A stretch of DNA of 21,749 bases, from assembly GCA_040755715.1 (NCBI GenBank), contig JBFLXN010000034.1, forward strand, positions 1 to 21,749. Reading direction: 5' to 3'. This DNA is from JBFLXN01 sp040755715 [NCBI: Candidatus Edwardsbacteria bacterium] (GTDB lineage Bacteria; Edwardsbacteria; AC1; JBFLXN01). The translations under genes were made by a program, and so were the position numbers. The notes beneath the pieces are model-generated. The model worked only from the letters and a program-made list of their open reading frames with translations, was not told the DNA's origin and made no database searches. Of this stretch, positions 3,272-21,697 are shown piece by piece. Numbering within the stretch: position 1 is the first letter of the stretch; each line of letters opens with the position of its first letter.

Positions 3272-3351
3272 TTTTGAGTTTGTTGAGTTTATTGGGTTTG
3301 TCCCGATGAAATCGGGATAAACTGGGTCAACTCAACAAACCAAATAAACTG
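3272..3351. repeat. 9-nt tandem units in inverted orientation around a TCCCGAT hairpin
   Basis: Units GAGTTTGTT, GAGTTTATT and GGGTTTGTC are followed by the hairpin TCCCGAT-GAA-ATCGGGA (3301-3317). Complementary-type units follow (AACTCAACA, AACCAAATA). The whole can fold as a long imperfect hairpin in the guaA leader. Units of the same type recur at 8257-8292. Confidence 0.65.
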
Positions 3352-5298: not shown

Positions 5299-7464
5299 AT
5301 GCAAAGATTAATACAAATTATTACTTTTTGTCTTTTATTCAGAATCTCGCAAGTTTATCCAGAGACTCCTGTGCCAATTTATTCCTTGATTGAAGTGGAA
5401 TTTCAGAATCGCCAGCGACTACACAATCTTGTAAGGGCGTTAGATTTAACGCCCCTGACAATAGAAGATGTAAGAGATAACCACCTCAAGGCGTTAGCCA
5501 GAACTGAGCAGATTGAAAAGATAAGGGCTCTGGGATTTAAAGTAAAAATCCTGCTTGATGACTATCGTCAGGCGCTTGATTTTCTGAAGACAAAAGCCAA
5601 TCTCGGGCAATACCACAATTATGCGGAATTGGATTCAGTGATGCATCAAATTGCCGCAGACCATTCAAGTATTGCCAAACTTGATAGTCTCGGCAAAAGT
5701 GTTCAAGGTCGCTGGCTTTGGGCTTTGAAGATTAGTAACAATCCAGCAGTGAAACAAAACAAACCGAGAATTAGACTCATTGGTGCCCATCATGGAAATG
5801 AACTAATTTCAGTAGAGGTGCCACTGTATATCGCCAATGTCTTGACGGATAGTTTTGGAATTAGTTCCCGCATTACCGATTTAGTCAACAATCGGGAAAT
5901 CTGGATTATTCCGATGATGAATCCTGATGGAGTTGAATTGGGACAGCGATGGAATGCTAATGGGGTAGATTTAAATCGTGATTATGGCTATATGTGGGAA
6001 GGAGAAGGGTTTAGTGACTCCGTCTTTTCTCAACCGGAAACCCGGGCGATTCGCCAGAACGCTCTGGAAAATACCTATACCCTCTCACTCTCATATCATA
6101 GCGGAGCCGTGGCAGTTAACTATATCTGGAATTATGACTCTTTGCGGGCACAAGATGACTCTTTGGCTTTGGTTTTAAGCAATGGTTACGCTTCTTACAA
6201 TGGCTATTGGGTAACGAATGGTTGGGATTGGTATCAGACAAATGGGGATTGTAATGACTTTTCCTATGGCACCTTTGGGGACATAGATTGGACTATTGAA
6301 CTTTCCTATGACTATGCCCCCCCCGAAAGTCTAATTGATACTATCTGTAGAGAAAATAAAGATGCCATACTTTACATTATTAACAAAGCAGGTGAAGGAA
6401 TCAGAGGAGTGGTGACCGATGCCATTTCTAACAAACCAGTGTCGGCAAGAATCAATGTCTTACCTATCAATTGGCCAGTTTATAATGATACGGTCTTAGG
6501 GGATTATCATCGGGTGCTGTTGCCAGGAACTTATGATATTAGATTTGCGGCTAATGGTTACGTGGATACTATTGTCAGTAATGTTCCCGTCACTTGGGGA
6601 AGTCCGACAATCCTCAATGTAGCGATGAGGCGAGATTCTAATCGTGTCTATGCTTATCAGGTTGTTTCAGTGAGAGAGAGGGACCCCAATGGTTCTTCTG
6701 CAAATCTCAATCACACCCTCACTCCGTCTGCCTTAGGAGCGCCAGACAGCATTTGTTTCTCCTTAGGAGTGAGAGGAAATATTGTCTTGGATATGGGCAA
6801 GGGAAGTGAGATTGTTGATGATAGTGGAGCAGATTTTAGAGTTTATGAGTGTATTGCTTTGGGAATCAGAGCCTGCAGTATTTTTGTTAGCAACAATTGG
6901 AGCGGACCTTGGATTTTCTTGGAAATGGCTAATGGCACCACTGAGTTTGACCTGGCTATCTCTGGATTAACTCAGGCAAGATATATTCGTTTAGCCGATG
7001 ATGGCGATGGCAATCCACTTGACCCATATCCTGGTTTTGATTTGGATGCGGTAAAGGCAATTCACAGCAATACAGGCAGTGAAGAACCAGATTACAGATG
7101 GCAGATTACAGATTACAGATTGATGCAAAATTATCCGAATCCATTTTCTTCAAGCACGGAGATAAGATATCAGATAGCAGATAACAGATTACAGATAACA
7201 GATAAACCGTCATTAGTTATCAGTCATCAGTCATCGGTTAGTTTAAAGGTCTACAATCTTGCTGGGCAACTTGTGCGAACATTAGTCAACGAGCTGACCT
7301 CTTCCCGATTTATCGGGATGAGGTCGGTAGTCTGGGATGCAAAGGATGAAAGTGGAAAGCGTGTGGCTCCCGGCGTCTATTTCTACAGGTTAACTGCCCG
7401 CCAAACTAACGGCGGACAAGTAGGTGATTTCACGGCGACAAAGAAGATGATTTTGTTGCGGTAG
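5299..7464 (+). CDS. secreted M14 zinc carboxypeptidase with C-terminal T9SS/FlgD-like sorting domain
   Basis: A 721-residue exported protein. Residues 1-21 look like a signal peptide. The M14 domain (about 105-365) has zinc ligands H165-x-x-E168 (GAHHGNE) and His267 (SYHSG). Substrate-site residues lie in NPDG and DLNRDYG (224-230), and the catalytic Glu is 334 (TIELSYDY), so it should be an active metallocarboxypeptidase. A transthyretin-like CarboxypepD_reg domain (366-443) follows. Next comes a beta-rich domain (450-590) resembling a jelly-roll or discoidin-type module, then a YPNPF sorting domain (608-721) ending KKMILLR. Such tails direct secretion or surface attachment in FCB bacteria. 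GAGGG precedes ATG 5299. The linker and sorting domain are interrupted in frame by 7-nt repeats (7088-7122, 7171-7237) and by a 30-bp palindrome (7296-7325). It probably digests peptides outside the cell; the substrate is unknown. Confidence 0.9.
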   Translation: MQRLIQIITFCLLFRISQVYPETPVPIYSLIEVEFQNRQRLHNLVRALDLTPLTIEDVRDNHLKALARTEQIEKIRALGFKVKILLDDYRQALDFLKTKANLGQYHNYAELDSVMHQIAADHSSIAKLDSLGKSVQGRWLWALKISNNPAVKQNKPRIRLIGAHHGNELISVEVPLYIANVLTDSFGISSRITDLVNNREIWIIPMMNPDGVELGQRWNANGVDLNRDYGYMWEGEGFSDSVFSQPETRAIRQNALENTYTLSLSYHSGAVAVNYIWNYDSLRAQDDSLALVLSNGYASYNGYWVTNGWDWYQTNGDCNDFSYGTFGDIDWTIELSYDYAPPESLIDTICRENKDAILYIINKAGEGIRGVVTDAISNKPVSARINVLPINWPVYNDTVLGDYHRVLLPGTYDIRFAANGYVDTIVSNVPVTWGSPTILNVAMRRDSNRVYAYQVVSVRERDPNGSSANLNHTLTPSALGAPDSICFSLGVRGNIVLDMGKGSEIVDDSGADFRVYECIALGIRACSIFVSNNWSGPWIFLEMANGTTEFDLAISGLTQARYIRLADDGDGNPLDPYPGFDLDAVKAIHSNTGSEEPDYRWQITDYRLMQNYPNPFSSSTEIRYQIADNRLQITDKPSLVISHQSSVSLKVYNLAGQLVRTLVNELTSSRFIGMRSVVWDAKDESGKRVAPGVYFYRLTARQTNGGQVGDFTATKKMILLR
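7088..7122 (+). repeat. in-frame heptamer array (GATTACA-type), block 1
   Basis: Five 7-nt units in register: CAGATTA, CAGATGG, CAGATTA, CAGATTA, CAGATTG. They encode the QITDYRL-type linker just before the YPNPF motif. Three units (21 nt) give a 7-residue period. Confidence 0.85.
7171..7237 (+). repeat. in-frame heptamer arrays, blocks 2 and 3
   Basis: Block 2 (7171-7205) is CAGATAG, CAGATAA, CAGATTA, CAGATAA, CAGATAA. Block 3 (7210-7237) is TCATTAG, TTATCAG, TCATCAG, TCATCGG. They encode the stretch QIADNRLQITDK through ISHQSS inside the sorting domain, between two conserved strands. Confidence 0.83.
7296..7325. repeat. 30-bp palindrome inserted in the sorting domain
   Basis: Arms GACCTC-T-TCCCGAT (7296-7309) and ATCGGGA-T-GAGGTC (7312-7325) are perfectly complementary apart from the T/T pair, with a 2-nt loop. 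The core is the TCCCGAT/ATCGGGA hairpin found in several spacers. It encodes LTSSRFIGMRS, placed between LVNE and VVWD, where related sorting domains usually have a short turn. Confidence 0.75.
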
Positions 7465-7584
7465 CAGTGCGATTTACCTGTCCCGTAGGAAATGTAATTT
7501 CCAGCGGGGTCGCACAGCATTTAATGTTGGCTGTCCAATCTGACCAATATAAATCTGTCGCATGAATGCGACCGCTACAAATTT

Positions 7585-7603
7585 GTCCCGATAAAATCGG
7601 GAC
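7585..7603. terminator. hairpin after the M14 peptidase gene
   Basis: GTCCCGAT-AAA-ATCGGGAC is a perfect 8-bp stem with a 3-nt loop, 120 bp after the stop. No T-tract follows. It is a member of the TCCCGAT palindrome family. Confidence 0.4.
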
Positions 7604-7616
7604 CGCTACAAACCTA

Positions 7617-7664
7617 CAGGCAGGAGATTTTTCTGCGACGAAGAAGATGATTTTGATAAGGTAG
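7617..7664 (+). pseudogene. remnant of a second sorting-domain C-terminus
   Basis: These 48 bases read QAGDFSATKKMILIR followed by TAG. This is nearly the same as the peptidase C-terminus GGQVGDFTATKKMILLR, 150 bp upstream, and similar at DNA level. It has no start and no upstream domain. It is most simply the tail of a deleted or recombined sorting-domain gene, or a local duplication of the peptidase 3' end. Confidence 0.72.
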
Positions 7665-10481: not shown

Positions 10482-10498
10482 AAAATAAAACACCTGAA

Positions 10499-10601
10499 TT
10501 TCCTTGACCCCGCTAGGAAAATAGACAAAGCAGAGGAGTCATAGTAAAATCTGCCCATCAATGGCGCCGTTGGCGCCACATTAGGGCGATTTTCCTTGAC
10601 A
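10499..10601 (+). other. conserved promoter-bearing element, copy 1
   Basis: This is homologous to 21482-21612. Shared features in order are TTCCTTGACCC, ATAGACAAAG (10521-10530), AAAATCT, GCCCAT, a GGCGCC hairpin (10563-10577), and a 3' block (10572-10601) identical to copy 2 at 29 of 30 positions. TAGACA (10522-10527) with 17 bp to TAAAAT (10545-10550) could be an internal promoter in this copy. It may be a regulatory module, a small RNA gene or a miniature mobile element. Confidence 0.72.
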
Positions 10602-10625
10602 ATAAACCAGTGTTTTGAGTATATT
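10596..10625 (+). promoter_or_regulatory. promoter for the coiled-coil/HU operon
   Basis: TTGACA (10596-10601), an 18-bp spacer and TATATT (10620-10625), at the 3' end of the conserved element. It predicts a leader of about 175 nt before ATG 10806. Confidence 0.65.
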
Positions 10626-10670
10626 TATCACATTATTCTCATCTCCACTGGACCCTTTGAATCTTTACCT

Positions 10671-10803
10671 CGCACCTCGTAATACCTCACCCTTCAGGGT
10701 GAAAATGAATCCCGCCTCTGCGTGCAGGGGTGGGGTGAAAGAGGTGTAAATAGTTATTCCTAAATAATACCTCGCCCTTCAGCGGTGAGGTGCGGGGTTT
10801 ACT
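10671..10803. repeat. imperfect palindromes and CCTC-type repeats in the leader
   Basis: The units TTACCTC, GCACCTC, ATACCTC recur. CACCC-TTCA-GGGTG is a perfect small hairpin, and a CCTCGCC/GGTGAGG palindrome ends next to the start of the coiled-coil gene. The leader RNA could fold extensively near the ribosome-binding region. Confidence 0.5.
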
Positions 10804-10805
10804 TT

Positions 10806-13283
10806 ATGACTATACCAGAGTTACCCTCAAATTTTTTTAAGAGACTGAAAAAATCATTCTCGGTTTTTTTTTCTTTCTTTCCAGATGTATTTGTCCCTAA
10901 ATCACGTTTGACACTGGATGAGGCTATCAGAGAGAAGGAAGAGAAAAGAAGAGAACTGGAAATCAGTGTCAAAGAGAAACGTCGGGAAGAAGCCCAACTT
11001 CTGCGCCAAATTCGTCAAAGCCAGAAAGAGAAAAAGAAATTAGCCCTTTGGTTGGAAAAAGCAAACAAAGAGCTCTTAAACGCCCGTCAAGAGACTCAAA
11101 ACAGACAGGAAGAATGTCAAAAATTAGATGAAGAAATTGCTTCCAGAAAGAAGATCGTAAGTGCACTTGAACAACAGATTGAAAAATTAAAAGAAGAAGC
11201 AGCACTTTCTGCAGATAGAACAGCCTCTGCCAAATCTGAAGAAGTTGATGTTCTCCAGCAGCTCAAAGAGAAGAAAGTCGAAAAAGAAACTTTTCAAAAA
11301 GAGATAGCGGAGCGACAAAATGAGCTTCAATCTGTGGAGAAGAAATTAAAAGAAACTATTGACGAGCAGAAATACCTAAAGCAAAAAATTATTGCTCAGA
11401 GAAATTCCGCCTACGAGCGAGAGAAGAAACTTTCTGAATTACAAAAACAAGTAGAACAGGCAGAAGAAAAGATAGAAGAATTACGCTCGGTCCAAATCTC
11501 TCTCTTGGAAGAATTAGAAAAGAAAAAGGAAGCGGAAAAAGAAAGTGAGAAGAAAAGATTAGAAGATGAAGAAGCTATTCGGGGGTTGGAAGAAAGACTT
11601 CTTCATGAGGCAAAAGAAGAGAGTGAATTAGTTCAAAAAATTGAAAAAGAAAAAAGTGACTTAAGTGAAATTGAGAAGTGGCTAGAAACAAAGACTAAAG
11701 AAAAAGAAAGATGCACTAAATATTTAGAGGAGAAATATCAAGAAATTTCGCGGCTTGAACAAGAAATTACTGATAAAAATGAAACTCTTAAAAAACTAAT
11801 AGAATCAAATCAAAAGCTTCAAGAAGAAATCACTAAGGTCAAAGGGGAAACAAATTCTCTAAATCAGAAGATTATTGTTGGGCGAGAGGAATCTGAAAAG
11901 ATACGGCAAAAGATTGATGAACTCAAAAATAGTGAATCACAGACCCTTTTACGTTTTGAGAGAATAAAAGGAGAACTAAATCAGGCAGAGACAAAACTAC
12001 AGAGGACAAAAGAAGATTTATCTGCCGGCGAGTTAAGAATTGCAGAGAAAAACCGGGCAGAACTAGATTTGACCTGCACAATTGACCAGAAAAAAGAAGA
12101 AACCTTAGCCCTGACTAAAGTAATTGATGAAGCAAAACTGAAAATCGCTAACTTGGAAGGAAAAATTCAAGAAAAAGAAAAACAGTATGAGAATCTAAAA
12201 AGACAAATCAGTGAGGGAGAGGAAAAAAATAATAAATTAGTTGAAATAAGAAAACAGCAAGAAGAAGAAAAGGCAAAAGATGAAAATAAACTTGAAGAAC
12301 TTCAGGGAGCAAAACAACTACTTGAAGAAGAAATCCGTAACAAAATCCAAGAAGAAAGCAGTTTAGGTCAAAAGATCACAGAAAAGGAAGACGAATTTCA
12401 AGTCCTTTTGAAGAAATTAGAGAGACTTAGCCAAGAAGAAACTGACCGGCAACAGAAGATTCAATTGGCTAAACAAGAAGAAATGAGGCTGACTATTCAA
12501 CAACAGGAATTGAAAGAAGGCTTGAAAGAATTGGTGACTTTGATTGAAGGTCAAAAAGAAGAAGGACTCAAAATTAGAGCCTGGGTTGAAGAGGGAAAGC
12601 AAGAACAAGAAAGAATAAAGGAATCAATAAAACAATTTTTAGAGGAACAAAAACAAATTGAGCAGAGATTATCCGATCTTAGAGAACAAGAACAGGTGAG
12701 TTTAGGACAGATGGAGGAACAATTTTTACAGGAAAAAGAGAAAATTGAACAGAGATTATCTAAGCTAAAAATTGAAGAGCAAGCAATTTTAGACCAGCTA
12801 GAAAAAAGTCGGAGAGAAGAGGAAGAAGCCCGACAGACAGTAGAAGCGTTCAGGCAAGAAAAAGAACAGCAGGAAGTGACCTTAGAAAAGGAGAAGGAAG
12901 AAATATCTAAGTCAGAAAAAGAAAAAGAGAAGATAGAACAAAATATAGTCAATCTTCAAGCAAAAATTCAAGAATTACAAATAGCCGAACAGGAACTCAG
13001 GGAAAGAATGGTAAGAGAGGTGAAAGAGGAAGCAGGTTTGGAAGGGAGAATAAAGGTTCTGAGAGATGAAGCCTTAGAAGCAGAAAGGACAATAATGACT
13101 AAGAAAAAAGAAGGGGAAACACTTTCCCAAATGCAGGAAAGGCTGAAAAGAGAATTGATTGGTTATGAACAGCAGTTAAAAGAACGAGAAAAATTAGCGA
13201 CTACTATTGTTGAACAGAAAAGAATCCTTGAAGAATTGGAAGGAAAGATAGAAAAAAAGAGTGGGCTTTTTGCTGATGTATGA
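10806..13283 (+). CDS. giant coiled-coil protein, function unknown
   Basis: An 825-residue protein. Residues 1-38 contain a Phe-rich, Lys-containing amphipathic stretch (NFFKRLKKSFSVFFSFFPD) that could dock on a membrane. From about residue 39 to the end it is an almost unbroken Glu/Lys/Gln-rich coiled coil with local repeats (for example KEKIEQRLSKL and KQIEQRLSDL). It has no Walker A or Walker B motif and no hinge, so it is not an SMC or Rad50 ATPase. The family is unrecognised; the architecture resembles bacterial intermediate-filament-like or scaffold proteins, which is inference from shape only. ATG 10806 is preferred over GTG 10785, which lies inside repeat sequence. HU follows after 36 bp, so the two are probably co-transcribed. 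Confidence 0.85.
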   Translation: MTIPELPSNFFKRLKKSFSVFFSFFPDVFVPKSRLTLDEAIREKEEKRRELEISVKEKRREEAQLLRQIRQSQKEKKKLALWLEKANKELLNARQETQNRQEECQKLDEEIASRKKIVSALEQQIEKLKEEAALSADRTASAKSEEVDVLQQLKEKKVEKETFQKEIAERQNELQSVEKKLKETIDEQKYLKQKIIAQRNSAYEREKKLSELQKQVEQAEEKIEELRSVQISLLEELEKKKEAEKESEKKRLEDEEAIRGLEERLLHEAKEESELVQKIEKEKSDLSEIEKWLETKTKEKERCTKYLEEKYQEISRLEQEITDKNETLKKLIESNQKLQEEITKVKGETNSLNQKIIVGREESEKIRQKIDELKNSESQTLLRFERIKGELNQAETKLQRTKEDLSAGELRIAEKNRAELDLTCTIDQKKEETLALTKVIDEAKLKIANLEGKIQEKEKQYENLKRQISEGEEKNNKLVEIRKQQEEEKAKDENKLEELQGAKQLLEEEIRNKIQEESSLGQKITEKEDEFQVLLKKLERLSQEETDRQQKIQLAKQEEMRLTIQQQELKEGLKELVTLIEGQKEEGLKIRAWVEEGKQEQERIKESIKQFLEEQKQIEQRLSDLREQEQVSLGQMEEQFLQEKEKIEQRLSKLKIEEQAILDQLEKSRREEEEARQTVEAFRQEKEQQEVTLEKEKEEISKSEKEKEKIEQNIVNLQAKIQELQIAEQELRERMVREVKEEAGLEGRIKVLRDEALEAERTIMTKKKEGETLSQMQERLKRELIGYEQQLKEREKLATTIVEQKRILEELEGKIEKKSGLFADV

Positions 13284-14099: not shown

Positions 14100-14161
14100 T
14101 CATTTGGATTTGTTTGGGATTTGGGATTTAGAAATTGGGATTTATCCCGACGGAGTCGGGA
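14100..14161. repeat. GGGATTT heptamer array plus TCCCGAC hairpin downstream of the cyclophilin
   Basis: Units GGGATTT, GGGATTT, AGAAATT, GGGATTT run into ATCCCGAC-GGA-GTCGGGAT, which abuts the cyclophilin stop codon (minus strand). The hairpin may mark its transcript end, though there is no T-tract. Confidence 0.55.
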
Positions 14162-14830: not shown

Positions 14831-14859
14831 AGTATAGCAAATGTCTCTCTTTTTGTCAA
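14831..14859 (-). promoter_or_regulatory. promoter of the cyclophilin gene
   Basis: On the minus strand TTGACA (14859-14854), a 17-bp spacer and TATACT (14836-14831). It is preceded by TTAGG and GATTTTCC, as in the two copies of the conserved element. Confidence 0.8.
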
Positions 14860-14925
14860 GGAAAATCAACCTAAGGTAAGGTTTTTTTTCTGTTAGGAAA
14901 AATTGAAAAGTGGACACTTTAAAGT

Positions 14926-15561: not shown

Positions 15562-15592
15562 AAGTGCGTCCTGATTCAATCGGGACGCACTT
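15562..15592 (+). promoter_or_regulatory. leader hairpin of rpsO
   Basis: AAGTGCGTCCTGAT (15562-15575) pairs with ATCGGGACGCACTT (15579-15592) over 14 bp with one G-U wobble and a 3-nt loop. It could be the target of S15 autoregulation, as seen with unrelated leader structures in other bacteria. Its core is also a TCCCGAT-family palindrome, so it may be a repeat element. Confidence 0.5.
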
Positions 15593-19374: not shown

Positions 19375-19675
19375 TCTTCCCAGTTCTTGAAGAAATTCTC
19401 TTTATCGCAGAGAATTATTCTGATCTTTTTAGGTATAAATAATTTTAGGATACGCAGAGTAGAAAAGAAAAAAGGTTATGTTCTTTATCTCCGTGTCCTC
19501 CCTGGTCGTTGTTTCGGGAAGCAGAGCGTACGGGCAAGCTGTGATTTAATTTTTGGGGTCTTTCCCACTTTACTGGCAAATTTGGGATGTAATGTCTTGA
19601 TAGATATAGCAATTGTGCGTCTGTCCCAAATTACTGGCAAAATAGTTATAATTTGCTCTTTGAAATTTAATCTGA

Positions 19676-19706
19676 TAGAGTATCCTCAAAAAGAGAGGAT
19701 ACTCTA
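19676..19706 (+). promoter_or_regulatory. hairpin sequestering the transposase ribosome-binding site
   Basis: TAGAGTATCCTC (19676-19687) and GAGGATACTCTA (19695-19706) are a perfect 12-bp stem with a 7-nt loop. The 3' arm contains the GAGGA Shine-Dalgarno and ends on the A of the ATG. In other insertion sequences such hairpins block translation of transcripts reading in from outside. Confidence 0.72.
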
Positions 19707-20939
19707 TGTTCAACATCCCTAAGATTAGGATTGTAGAGCCTCAAATTCCGAAGTGGGTTCAGTGCTCTTATTGCGGTACTCGTCAAAAGTTCAAAAAGAA
19801 GACGGAGTATTGGCGAACAGTAAAGGTTCTCCACTTAGAACACCCAATGTTATTGAGAGTAAGGATGATTTGTGCTAAATGTCAGAATCCTGAGTGTTCC
19901 CACGGTAGTTTCACGCTTCCTATCGCAGGTGTTGAATATTATCAACGGGCTACATCCCAACTTATGAGAGAAGGAATAGCAGAGATCGTTGAAGACAATG
20001 TTACCTTAGAACGCATTGCTAAGCGATTTTTTCGCACCTTTAATACTACCAGCTCCAAATCGACCTTGGCTCGTTGGAAACACGGCCTAGCAGATAAATA
20101 TGAATTCCCCGAAATTATTAAGCGTCTAGAATTTTCTGGTGCCCTTTGTCTGGACGAATGCATGCCTAGAAGAGGTGGACACTATGAGCAGATTGCTGGT
20201 GAGGCTAAAAAGATTCGAATCCTTTATCTTGAACCAGTGCCAGAATTCTACGGCCGAGGAGTTACGGAAGCCTTCTGCCAAAAACTCAACCAGTGGGGAA
20301 TCAAACCCTATGGTGTAATTTTTGATCTACTTACTGCTTTTCCTAAAGTAATCGCAAAAGTTTGGCCCGAGGCATTCTGTCAGTTTGATCACTATCAATG
20401 TAAGGCAATGGATATGGCCTCACTTAAAGAATGCTCTCGTTCAGTTCCGTAAGTCCCTAAAGGGCAAAAAATGGGAATTCCATCGGGAAGAACTCTGGGA
20501 AATGAAGTGGGGCATCCTCAGGCAAATGGATCGCTGGGGAAAGAAAGAACATCTCCTAATCCCAGAGATGATTGAAATCTATTCTGGAACTGTGGTAGAA
20601 AAGGTTCTCATTTTCAAAGAGCAATTAGGGGATATCTTTGATGCTTCAGAATCTAAACGAGAGGCTTATGCCAAGAGAGATGCATTATCTAAAGAAACTT
20701 GGTGGCAAAACTCGTGGCATTTGACTAAATGTATGGAATTCCTTTTAAGCCCCAAGTTTCAATATATGGTCACTTACCTGGAGCATCCTGAAGTCCCTCG
20801 TTGCGGACAGTCCGAAACATTAATCAATGTCTTAAGACAGATGGAATCTGTGCGCAGAGGATTCAAAAGTCCAAAAGGAGGATTAGACCATCTTAAACTG
20901 TTTCAAATTATTCATTACCTCAAAGAACAATTAATATGA
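19706..20939 (+). pseudogene. ISL3-like transposase split by a frameshift
   Basis: The first frame (19706-20452, 248 codons) has a zinc-finger-like N-terminus (Cys20-x2-Cys23, Cys56-x2-Cys59, Cys64) and a helix-turn-helix region. Acidic residues lie at Asp150 (CLDEC), Asp207 (VIFDLLTAFPKV) and Asp228 (QFDHYQC). The second frame (to 20939) continues the homologous protein, starting KNALVQFRKSLKGKKW and ending with GQSETLINVLRQMESVRRG and FKSPKGGLDHL, which supplies the expected Glu. A +1 shift at CTTAAAG (20423-20429) would join them into about 410 residues, the usual ISL3 length. It could be a simple 1-nt indel (pseudogene) or recoding. ISL3 transposases cut and paste DNA by DDE chemistry. 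Confidence 0.75.
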
Positions 20940-20975
20940 TTTGCCAGTAAAATGGGAAAGACCCTATTTTTTCTC

Positions 20976-21451: not shown

Positions 21452-21481
21452 TGCCCCAAAATTTTTTTAAAAAACTCATTT

Positions 21482-21612
21482 TTTTCTTGACCCACTAAAA
21501 GAATAGACAAAGTAGATGGGTGAGGAAAATCTCTGCCTGAGCCGGATCTGCCTTTGGCATGATGCCCATTAGTGGCGCTAAGGGCGCCACATTAGGACGA
21601 TTTTCCTTGACA
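21482..21612 (+). other. conserved promoter-bearing element, copy 2
   Basis: This is homologous to 10499-10601: TTTCTTGACCC, ATAGACAAAG (21503-21512), GAAAATCT, GCCCAT, the hairpin GTGGCGC (21572-21578)/GCGCCAC (21584-21590), and the 3' block 21583-21612. It has an extra segment of about 25-30 nt in the middle (CTGAGCCGGATCTGCC onward). The hairpin is kept although loop and flanking bases differ. Confidence 0.72.
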
Positions 21613-21636
21613 AAGGTTTTCTAAATCCTATATAAT
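21607..21636 (+). promoter_or_regulatory. promoter at the end of element copy 2
   Basis: TTGACA (21607-21612), an 18-bp spacer and a perfect TATAAT (21631-21636). The gene it serves lies beyond the window. Confidence 0.75.
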
Positions 21637-21697
21637 AGTTACTGGTGAAAAATTATTTATTCCAACAAAAAATAGTGATTTCCAGTCTGATTATTTC

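Follow-up and report, generated by a model that had tools for sequence, protein, structure and literature searches.

The closest described counterparts of the repeat analyzed here are the Correia elements (NEMIS) of Neisseria and the RU-3 and ERIC (RU-1) repeats of enterobacteria. Correia elements are described as coming in two sizes of about 107 and 155 bp, the difference being an internal block, and as carrying 24-bp terminal inverted repeats together with a target-site duplication (PMC2229807); they are reported to hold a sigma-70-like promoter sequence and to number more than 120 in a gonococcal genome (PMC10969869). RU-3 and ERIC are presented as intergenic repeats of 103 and 127 bp, RU-3 forming a long stable stem-loop from imperfect inverted repeats, with a terminal TA included in these families (PMC2229807).

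Here we describe a non-coding repeat of ~100 bp that is present twice, between genes, in a window of 21,749 nt (the whole stretch of DNA that was analyzed; Table 1). As these sources describe the Correia elements, the repeat is like them in being small, non-coding and intergenic, with a long stem-loop and a sigma-70-like promoter sequence, and likewise in its two sizes, here 105 and 133 bp, set apart by an internal block; it is unlike them in that its palindrome is internal, with a ~40-bp 5' module outside it, in place of terminal inverted repeats, and in that two copies are known. This likeness would be one of way of working, and no sequence relation is claimed. RU-3 and ERIC, as described, are similar in size and intergenic place, and RU-3 in its stem-loop, a likeness by description and not by sequence, whereas no terminal TA of the kind reported for these families is seen in the present repeat. 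Most likely we are dealing with a further case of the known small interspersed promoter-carrying repeats, for which two copies are too few to be proof. In particular, we read both stretches as a lineage-specific, small interspersed palindromic intergenic repeat with which a promoter obtains its -35 half, a reading to which we give an even chance.

Table 1. Coordinates of the repeat copies, their parts and neighboring features in the window.
Feature	Position	Strand	Size	Sequence	Remarks
Repeat copy 1	10498..10602	+	105 bp		Left edge ~10498; from alignment and blastn against shuffles
Repeat copy 2	21481..21613	+	133 bp, including 31-bp insert		Left edge ~21481; from alignment and blastn against shuffles
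Left end, copy 1	10498..10509	+		ATTTCCTTGACC	Imperfect direct repeat (10/12) of right end TTTTCCTTGACA
Left end, copy 2	21481..21492	+		TTTTTCTTGACC	Imperfect direct repeat (10/12) of right end TTTTCCTTGACA
Block	Starts 10503 (copy 1), 21486 (copy 2)	+		CTTGACCC	
Block	Starts 10520 (copy 1), 21502 (copy 2)	+		AATAGACAAAG	Identical in both copies
Block	Starts 10552 (copy 1), 21563 (copy 2)	+		TGCCCATYARTGGCGCY	
Block (right arm)	10572-10602 (copy 1), 21583-21613 (copy 2)	+		GGCGCCACATTAGGRCGATTTTCCTTGACAA	30/31 identical; ends in -35
Imperfect palindrome, copy 1	10538..10600	+		GTCA AG AAAATC GCCC TGGCGCC / GGCGCCA GGGC GATTTT CT TGAC	
REP-like insert in copy 2	21532..21562	+	31 bp		Kin TCCGCC..GGCGGATCTGCCTTNGGCA in other genomes
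Promoter-like sequence, copy 1	10596..10625	+		TTGACA-N18-TATATT	11/12 consensus; -35 alone inside repeat
Promoter-like sequence, copy 2	21607..21636	+		TTGACA-N18-TATAAT	12/12 consensus; -35 alone inside repeat
Third, partial site	14850..14877	-		TTAGGTTGATTTTCCTTGACA	Before cyclophilin gene; without 5' module and palindrome
Coiled-coil protein gene	10806-13283		825 aa		Downstream of copy 1, upstream of HU gene
ISL3-like insertion sequence	19556-20964				26-bp inverted ends, 96% complementary

When copy 1 was compared with the rest of the window by blastn, two collinear pieces of 61.7 and 33.7 bits were obtained, against a maximum of 31.0 bits in 200 dinucleotide-preserving shuffles of the window, so that chance is no explanation for the repeat. 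An earlier note on this DNA had proposed an element of ~100-130 bp occurring twice, with the same order of blocks, a 30-bp block alike at 29 positions and an unrelated gene before each copy, all of which is borne out: both collinear pieces score above all shuffles, every named block is found, in the order CTTGACCC, AATAGACAAAG, TGCCCATYARTGGCGCY, GGCGCCACATTAGGRCGATTTTCCTTGACAA followed by TTGACA-N18 and a -10, and the near-identical block in fact agrees at 30 of 31 positions. The note had placed the element at 10499-10625 and 21482-21636, spans that take in the -10, which lies outside the repeat itself (10498-10602 and 21481-21613). Copy 1 starts 16 bp past the stop codon of sucD and copy 2 starts 29 bp past that of a DUF5618 gene, each in the sense direction of the gene before it, and these two genes are unrelated.

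The edges of the homology are sharp. On the right, the copies agree at 30/31 positions through TTGACAA and at 2/17 over the remaining spacer (Fisher p 2e-9), and upstream of the left CTTGACCC they agree at 8/20 and 14/40 positions. Within the repeat the right arm is kept better than the left part (30/31 vs 48/66, p 0.005), and leaving out the 15-bp promoter block gives 15/16 vs 48/66 (p 0.10); the better-kept arm may reflect function instead of a neutral repeat. Exact matches to AATAGACAAAG are confined in the window to the two copies.

Read 5' to 3', the repeat consists of a left end TTTYCTTGACC, a 5' module of ~40 bp (CTTGACCC-N7/8-AATAGACAAAGNAGA) that lies outside the palindrome, a left palindrome arm, a short loop and the right arm GGCGCCACATTAGGRCGATTTTCCTTGACAA. 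The GGCGCC hairpin pointed out in the earlier note is present in both copies and belongs to a structure larger than it had described: in copy 1 an imperfect palindrome runs from G 10538 to C 10600, in which 23 of the 24 drawn pairs form, with small bulges. Its imperfections are common to both copies (an extra T after AAAATC, and ATYA against CATTA), which argues for descent from one already imperfect element and not for two converging promoters. The outer ends of each copy, in turn, repeat the -35 context directly and imperfectly (10/12 positions).

Copy 2 is the longer of the two because of an exact 31-bp insert within the palindrome, which can also be placed one base further on than in Table 1. 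With the insert removed, AAAATC and TGCCCAT are continuous in copy 2 as they are in copy 1, leaving repeat lengths of 102-105 bp, copy 2 being otherwise ~3 bp shorter; the insert also accounts for the difference of ~30 bp between the copies in the distance from AATAGACAAAG to the -35. We take the insert to be akin to REP sequences. It resembles a double palindrome, TCCGCCNNNGGCGGATCTGCCTTNGGCA, found in other genomes: a 19-base insert pattern, at up to one mismatch, occurs at 17 places in 5 of 61 genomes and its reversed control at none, and blastn of copy 2 in 98 genomes (E limit 0.01) finds four places in three genomes, all of them on the insert to within 5 bases. An insert-like unit in G001, G003 and G004 is part of a longer repeat with units like CCGCCATTAGCAGGTNNNNCATATA, and a REP-like unit of this kind is common to eight loci from distant genomes. 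The likeness to REP-type palindromes is thus that of the insert, a double palindrome with kin elsewhere, whereas the repeat around it has three times its length and includes a -35. That the palindrome took in an insert while the rest was kept is as expected of spacer-like repeat DNA.

A built-in promoter had been suggested for the element, and TTGACA-N18 with a -10 is indeed found at both copies, but only the -35 half lies inside the repeat; the predicted sigma-70-like promoter sequence, which is directed outwards, is carried by the repeat in part, with an 18-bp spacer at both copies and its -10 in the flank. The promoter scan overall is no richer than shuffles (28 vs 24.9 and 22 vs 20.1), so both promoters rest on their 11/12 and 12/12 consensus letters and their context. 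The last ~14 bp of the right block (GATTTTCCTTGACA) are an ordinary -35 context that is also found elsewhere in the window and in other genomes; specific to the element are the remaining 17 of its 31 bases, together with the left part. In the window, CTTGACA heads a listed promoter-like pair at 6/6 of its occurrences (the reversed heptamer occurs once), and the other promoter-like sites with a CTTGACA -35 are without 5' module and palindrome. Exact matches to TTTTCCTTGACA number three in the window: one in each copy and one at 14865 (minus strand), ahead of a cyclophilin gene; this last site too scores 33.7 bits in blastn, above the shuffle maximum, and the promoter-like sequence there (14859, minus) has TTAGGNNGATTTTCC just upstream of its -35. 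From its letters we read it as an ordinary promoter that shares this -35 context. Further afield, GATTTTCCTTGACA stands before a -10-like TATATA or TATAAT in two distant genomes, one distant GATTTTCCTTGACA site lying ~80 bases ahead of a gene judged by eye to be HU-like, and TTTTCYTTGACA-N16-18-TATAMT occurs at 11 sites in 9 of 41 other genomes (reversed control, 1). Judged by sequence, the CTTGACA -35 context is a promoter feature of the housekeeping sigma-70 type, and it is in its last 14 bp that the repeat resembles a housekeeping promoter with a T-rich CTTGACA -35 context. Sigma-32, sigma-54 and integron attC readings were considered by their motifs and dropped by eye.

Put together, these features would describe a repeat made of a ~40-bp 5' module and a long imperfect palindrome, with a common -35 context at the end of the right arm. 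Given a -10 located 18 bp further on, as at both copies, the repeat and its flank would together form a complete promoter for the downstream gene. The target of the copy 1 promoter would be the gene of a coiled-coil protein of 825-832 aa, and that of copy 2 would lie off the window. An interspersed palindromic repeat explains the common descent, the sharp edges and the unrelated upstream genes, as well as why an insert was tolerated and why a promoter stands at the right end, and the abundance of palindromes in the window's intergenic DNA speaks for it too; we infer that it spread by a copying mechanism, that more copies exist and that the promoters are active. Counted against a repeat family are the number of known copies, two within 21.7 kb, which makes "interspersed family" an extrapolation, and the lack of an outer terminal inverted repeat and of a clean target-site duplication.

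The earlier note had offered three readings, a regulatory module, a small RNA and a miniature mobile element that supplies promoters, of which the last, its mobility being presumed, fits best. The sharp edge at the -35, the unrelated flanks, the palindrome and the insert-tolerant interior favor it. At the outer ends, in place of the terminal inverted repeats of a MITE, there are imperfect direct repeats, and the inverted arms are internal, so the repeat is not filed as a MITE. The two ends of each copy, as a candidate target-site duplication, agree at 10/12 positions, yet the right end is identical in both copies and therefore seems to be part of the element. Nor are the copies the ends of one ordinary transposon as far as the ISL3-like element is concerned, the sole insertion sequence recognized in the window, whose ends (GGGTCTTTCCC) differ from those of the copies. 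Its transposase lies in two overlapping frames (19706-20452 and 20385-20939), the first matching the NCBIfam ISL3 model at 43 bits, below the cut-off of 180. A variant that we regard as quite unlikely is that the element inserts specifically at the -35 boxes of existing promoters and rebuilds them: the left end TTTYCTTGAC would then represent the target's former -35 and GATTTTCCTTGACA, at the right end, that of the element itself, with the old -10 and spacing retained and ~100 bp of palindromic DNA added in front of the promoter. Insertion at the -35 would explain the direct-repeat ends, the constant right and varying left ends, the N18 spacing and the unrelated flanks.

The main rival to the interspersed repeat is a shared upstream regulatory region, in which two promoters of one regulon keep the sites of a regulator (AATAGACAAAG, and the palindrome near the -35) that would activate or repress both; we consider this a possible but distinctly less probable account. 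Since promoter spacers are not conserved, a conserved region of this kind would give the sharp edge at the -35 equally well, and the equal 18-bp spacers, the identity of AATAGACAAAG in both copies and in no other exact window match, and the TTAGGNNGATTTTCC beside the -35 of the third site, with its 33.7 vs 31.0 bits, all fit it. The distance from AATAGACAAAG to the -35, however, varies by ~30 bp owing to the insert, the third site is without 5' module and palindrome, and the downstream unit of copy 2 is off the window. Among 61 genomes, TTAGGNNGATTTTCCTTGACA at up to two mismatches turns up at 5 places, spread over 4 of the genomes (reversed control, 1), and lends little support either way. 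A single ordinary segmental duplication of one intergenic region, decayed since, would agree with two copies within 21.7 kb and none found elsewhere in the searches, but both edges are sharp and the upstream genes unrelated, and we hold it to be the least probable of these accounts.

Also unlikely, in our judgment, is a structured RNA: either a small RNA, or the 3' end of the upstream operon serving as a terminator or as a hairpin for mRNA stability, in each case followed closely by the next promoter. The position of the repeat, shortly after stop codons and in the sense direction, is consistent with it, as are RNA folds that beat shuffles (copy 1, z -3.98; copy 2, z -3.36) and a single compensatory replacement of G-C by A-U in what may be a 5' stem of 3 bp. 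Of 27 pairs in the two sequences, however, 23 are invariant, 1 has a one-sided change, 1 a two-sided change and 2 break, and the covariation is equalled by 254/500 shuffles; the GGCGCC stem has one C-to-T difference, which gives a U-G pair, and 0/7 pairs changed on both sides. The earlier observation that loops differ while stems remain paired is accordingly true but uninformative, and selection on RNA structure is not supported. Moreover, the palindrome lies upstream of the conserved promoter and so would not be transcribed from it. As to a small RNA with its own promoter, which had also been proposed, a promoter inside the repeat is listed for copy 1 (TAGACA-N17-TAAAAT at 10522) and none is listed by the promoter scan for copy 2. 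Strong hairpins are common in the intergenic DNA of this window: 6 of 11 intergenic regions, one being copy 2, hold an 80-mer at or below -30 kcal/mol, and in equal steps such 80-mers make up 28/507 in intergenic DNA (25/469 with both copies left out) vs 4/1194 in eight coding regions, so that the palindrome by itself is no evidence of RNA. Rfam at gathering score matches only tRNA in the whole window and neither copy (weak matches outside the copies fall at 10715-10785, E 2.8, and 21635-21696, E 1.1), and neither copy is among the 16 sites listed by the intrinsic terminator scan, which overall is not above shuffles (9 vs 10.0 and 7 vs 10.0).

We searched for further copies of the repeat in several ways. 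A covariance model seeded with the two copies, a check proposed in the earlier note, found with filters off only these two places in the window (next E 0.24), with the matches at both copies falling on both strands of each, and gave in 98 genomes only two matches, at E 0.45 and 0.71, neither convincing. Searches with copy 1 in overlapping sets of 3, 10, 98 and 290 genomes (E limits 10, 0.01, 0.01 and 0.001) yielded no further copy, a weak negative given that the relatives are distant and that the sets were without a positive-control genome carrying a known copy: the 3 genomes gave 15 short matches, all at E 0.58 or worse, and the 98 genomes two matches that reach a few bases beyond the -35 block in both directions. 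Copy 1 had no match in phages, and copy 2 only a single 28-base match in plasmids (E 0.1). In viral contigs, GGCGCCACATTAGGNCGATTTTCC and TTAGGNNGATTTTCCTTGACA each had 0 matches; TTGACCCN{6,9}AATAGACAAAG matched five stretches with no other repeat block around, which we took for chance, and the 16-base TGCCCATYARTGGCGC matched 23 stretches, in which blastn of both copies reached at most 24 bases. Across 181 loci (1.7 Mb) no match at E up to 1 exceeded 37 bases, and the one of this length fell in the insert. Within the window, a scan with CATTAGGGCGATTTTCC at five mismatches gave 5 places, of which 7462 (plus) and 14230 (minus) were set aside as chance. Of the titles and abstract openings listed in literature searches, none names such a repeat in Edwardsbacteria or a related candidate phylum.

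The host is, by its sequence, an uncultured lineage with no close relative among the genomes reached, since the nearest genomes stand at 69% identity in polynucleotide phosphorylase (PNPase), records of Candidatus Edwardsbacteria included, and the best of 31 genomes, a different one, at 76% in SucD. When 16 window proteins were compared with 20 loci (many of 4-6 kb), matches were limited to rpsO, pnp and the C-terminal region of the M14 peptidase, and at two sucD loci other genes follow sucD, so that synteny is of no help.

Other repeated and palindromic DNA is found around the copies. A second short intergenic palindrome, TTTGTCCCGATNAAATCGGGA-like, is present in four copies (3297-3317, 7582-7602, 14141-14161 and 15565-15585). 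The M14 carboxypeptidase gene contains CAGATTACAGAT-type repeats (7088-7210), in and near its C-terminal FlgD-like domain, and its last 49 bases are repeated, 80% alike, at 7616-7664. Between copy 1 and the coiled-coil gene (10640-10805) lie further palindromes, including CCTCGCCCTTCAGCGGTGAGG, and a large hairpin (10672-10751; 80-mer at -39.4 kcal/mol); these palindromes would fall in the 5' leader of the coiled-coil gene transcript. The coiled-coil protein itself matches no Pfam family at E 0.001, and its SMC-like matches fall far short of the SMC cut-offs.

With two copies as its basis, the claim made here mainly indicates what to look for in a complete genome. If the two copies do belong to a repeat family, it would provide a portable -35 in a bacterium that has no close relative among the genomes searched, and would be an example of promoters being placed or rebuilt by small repeats. 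If it is true, in addition, that insertion at the -35 spares the promoter, this would be a neat way of life for a parasitic sequence between crowded genes.
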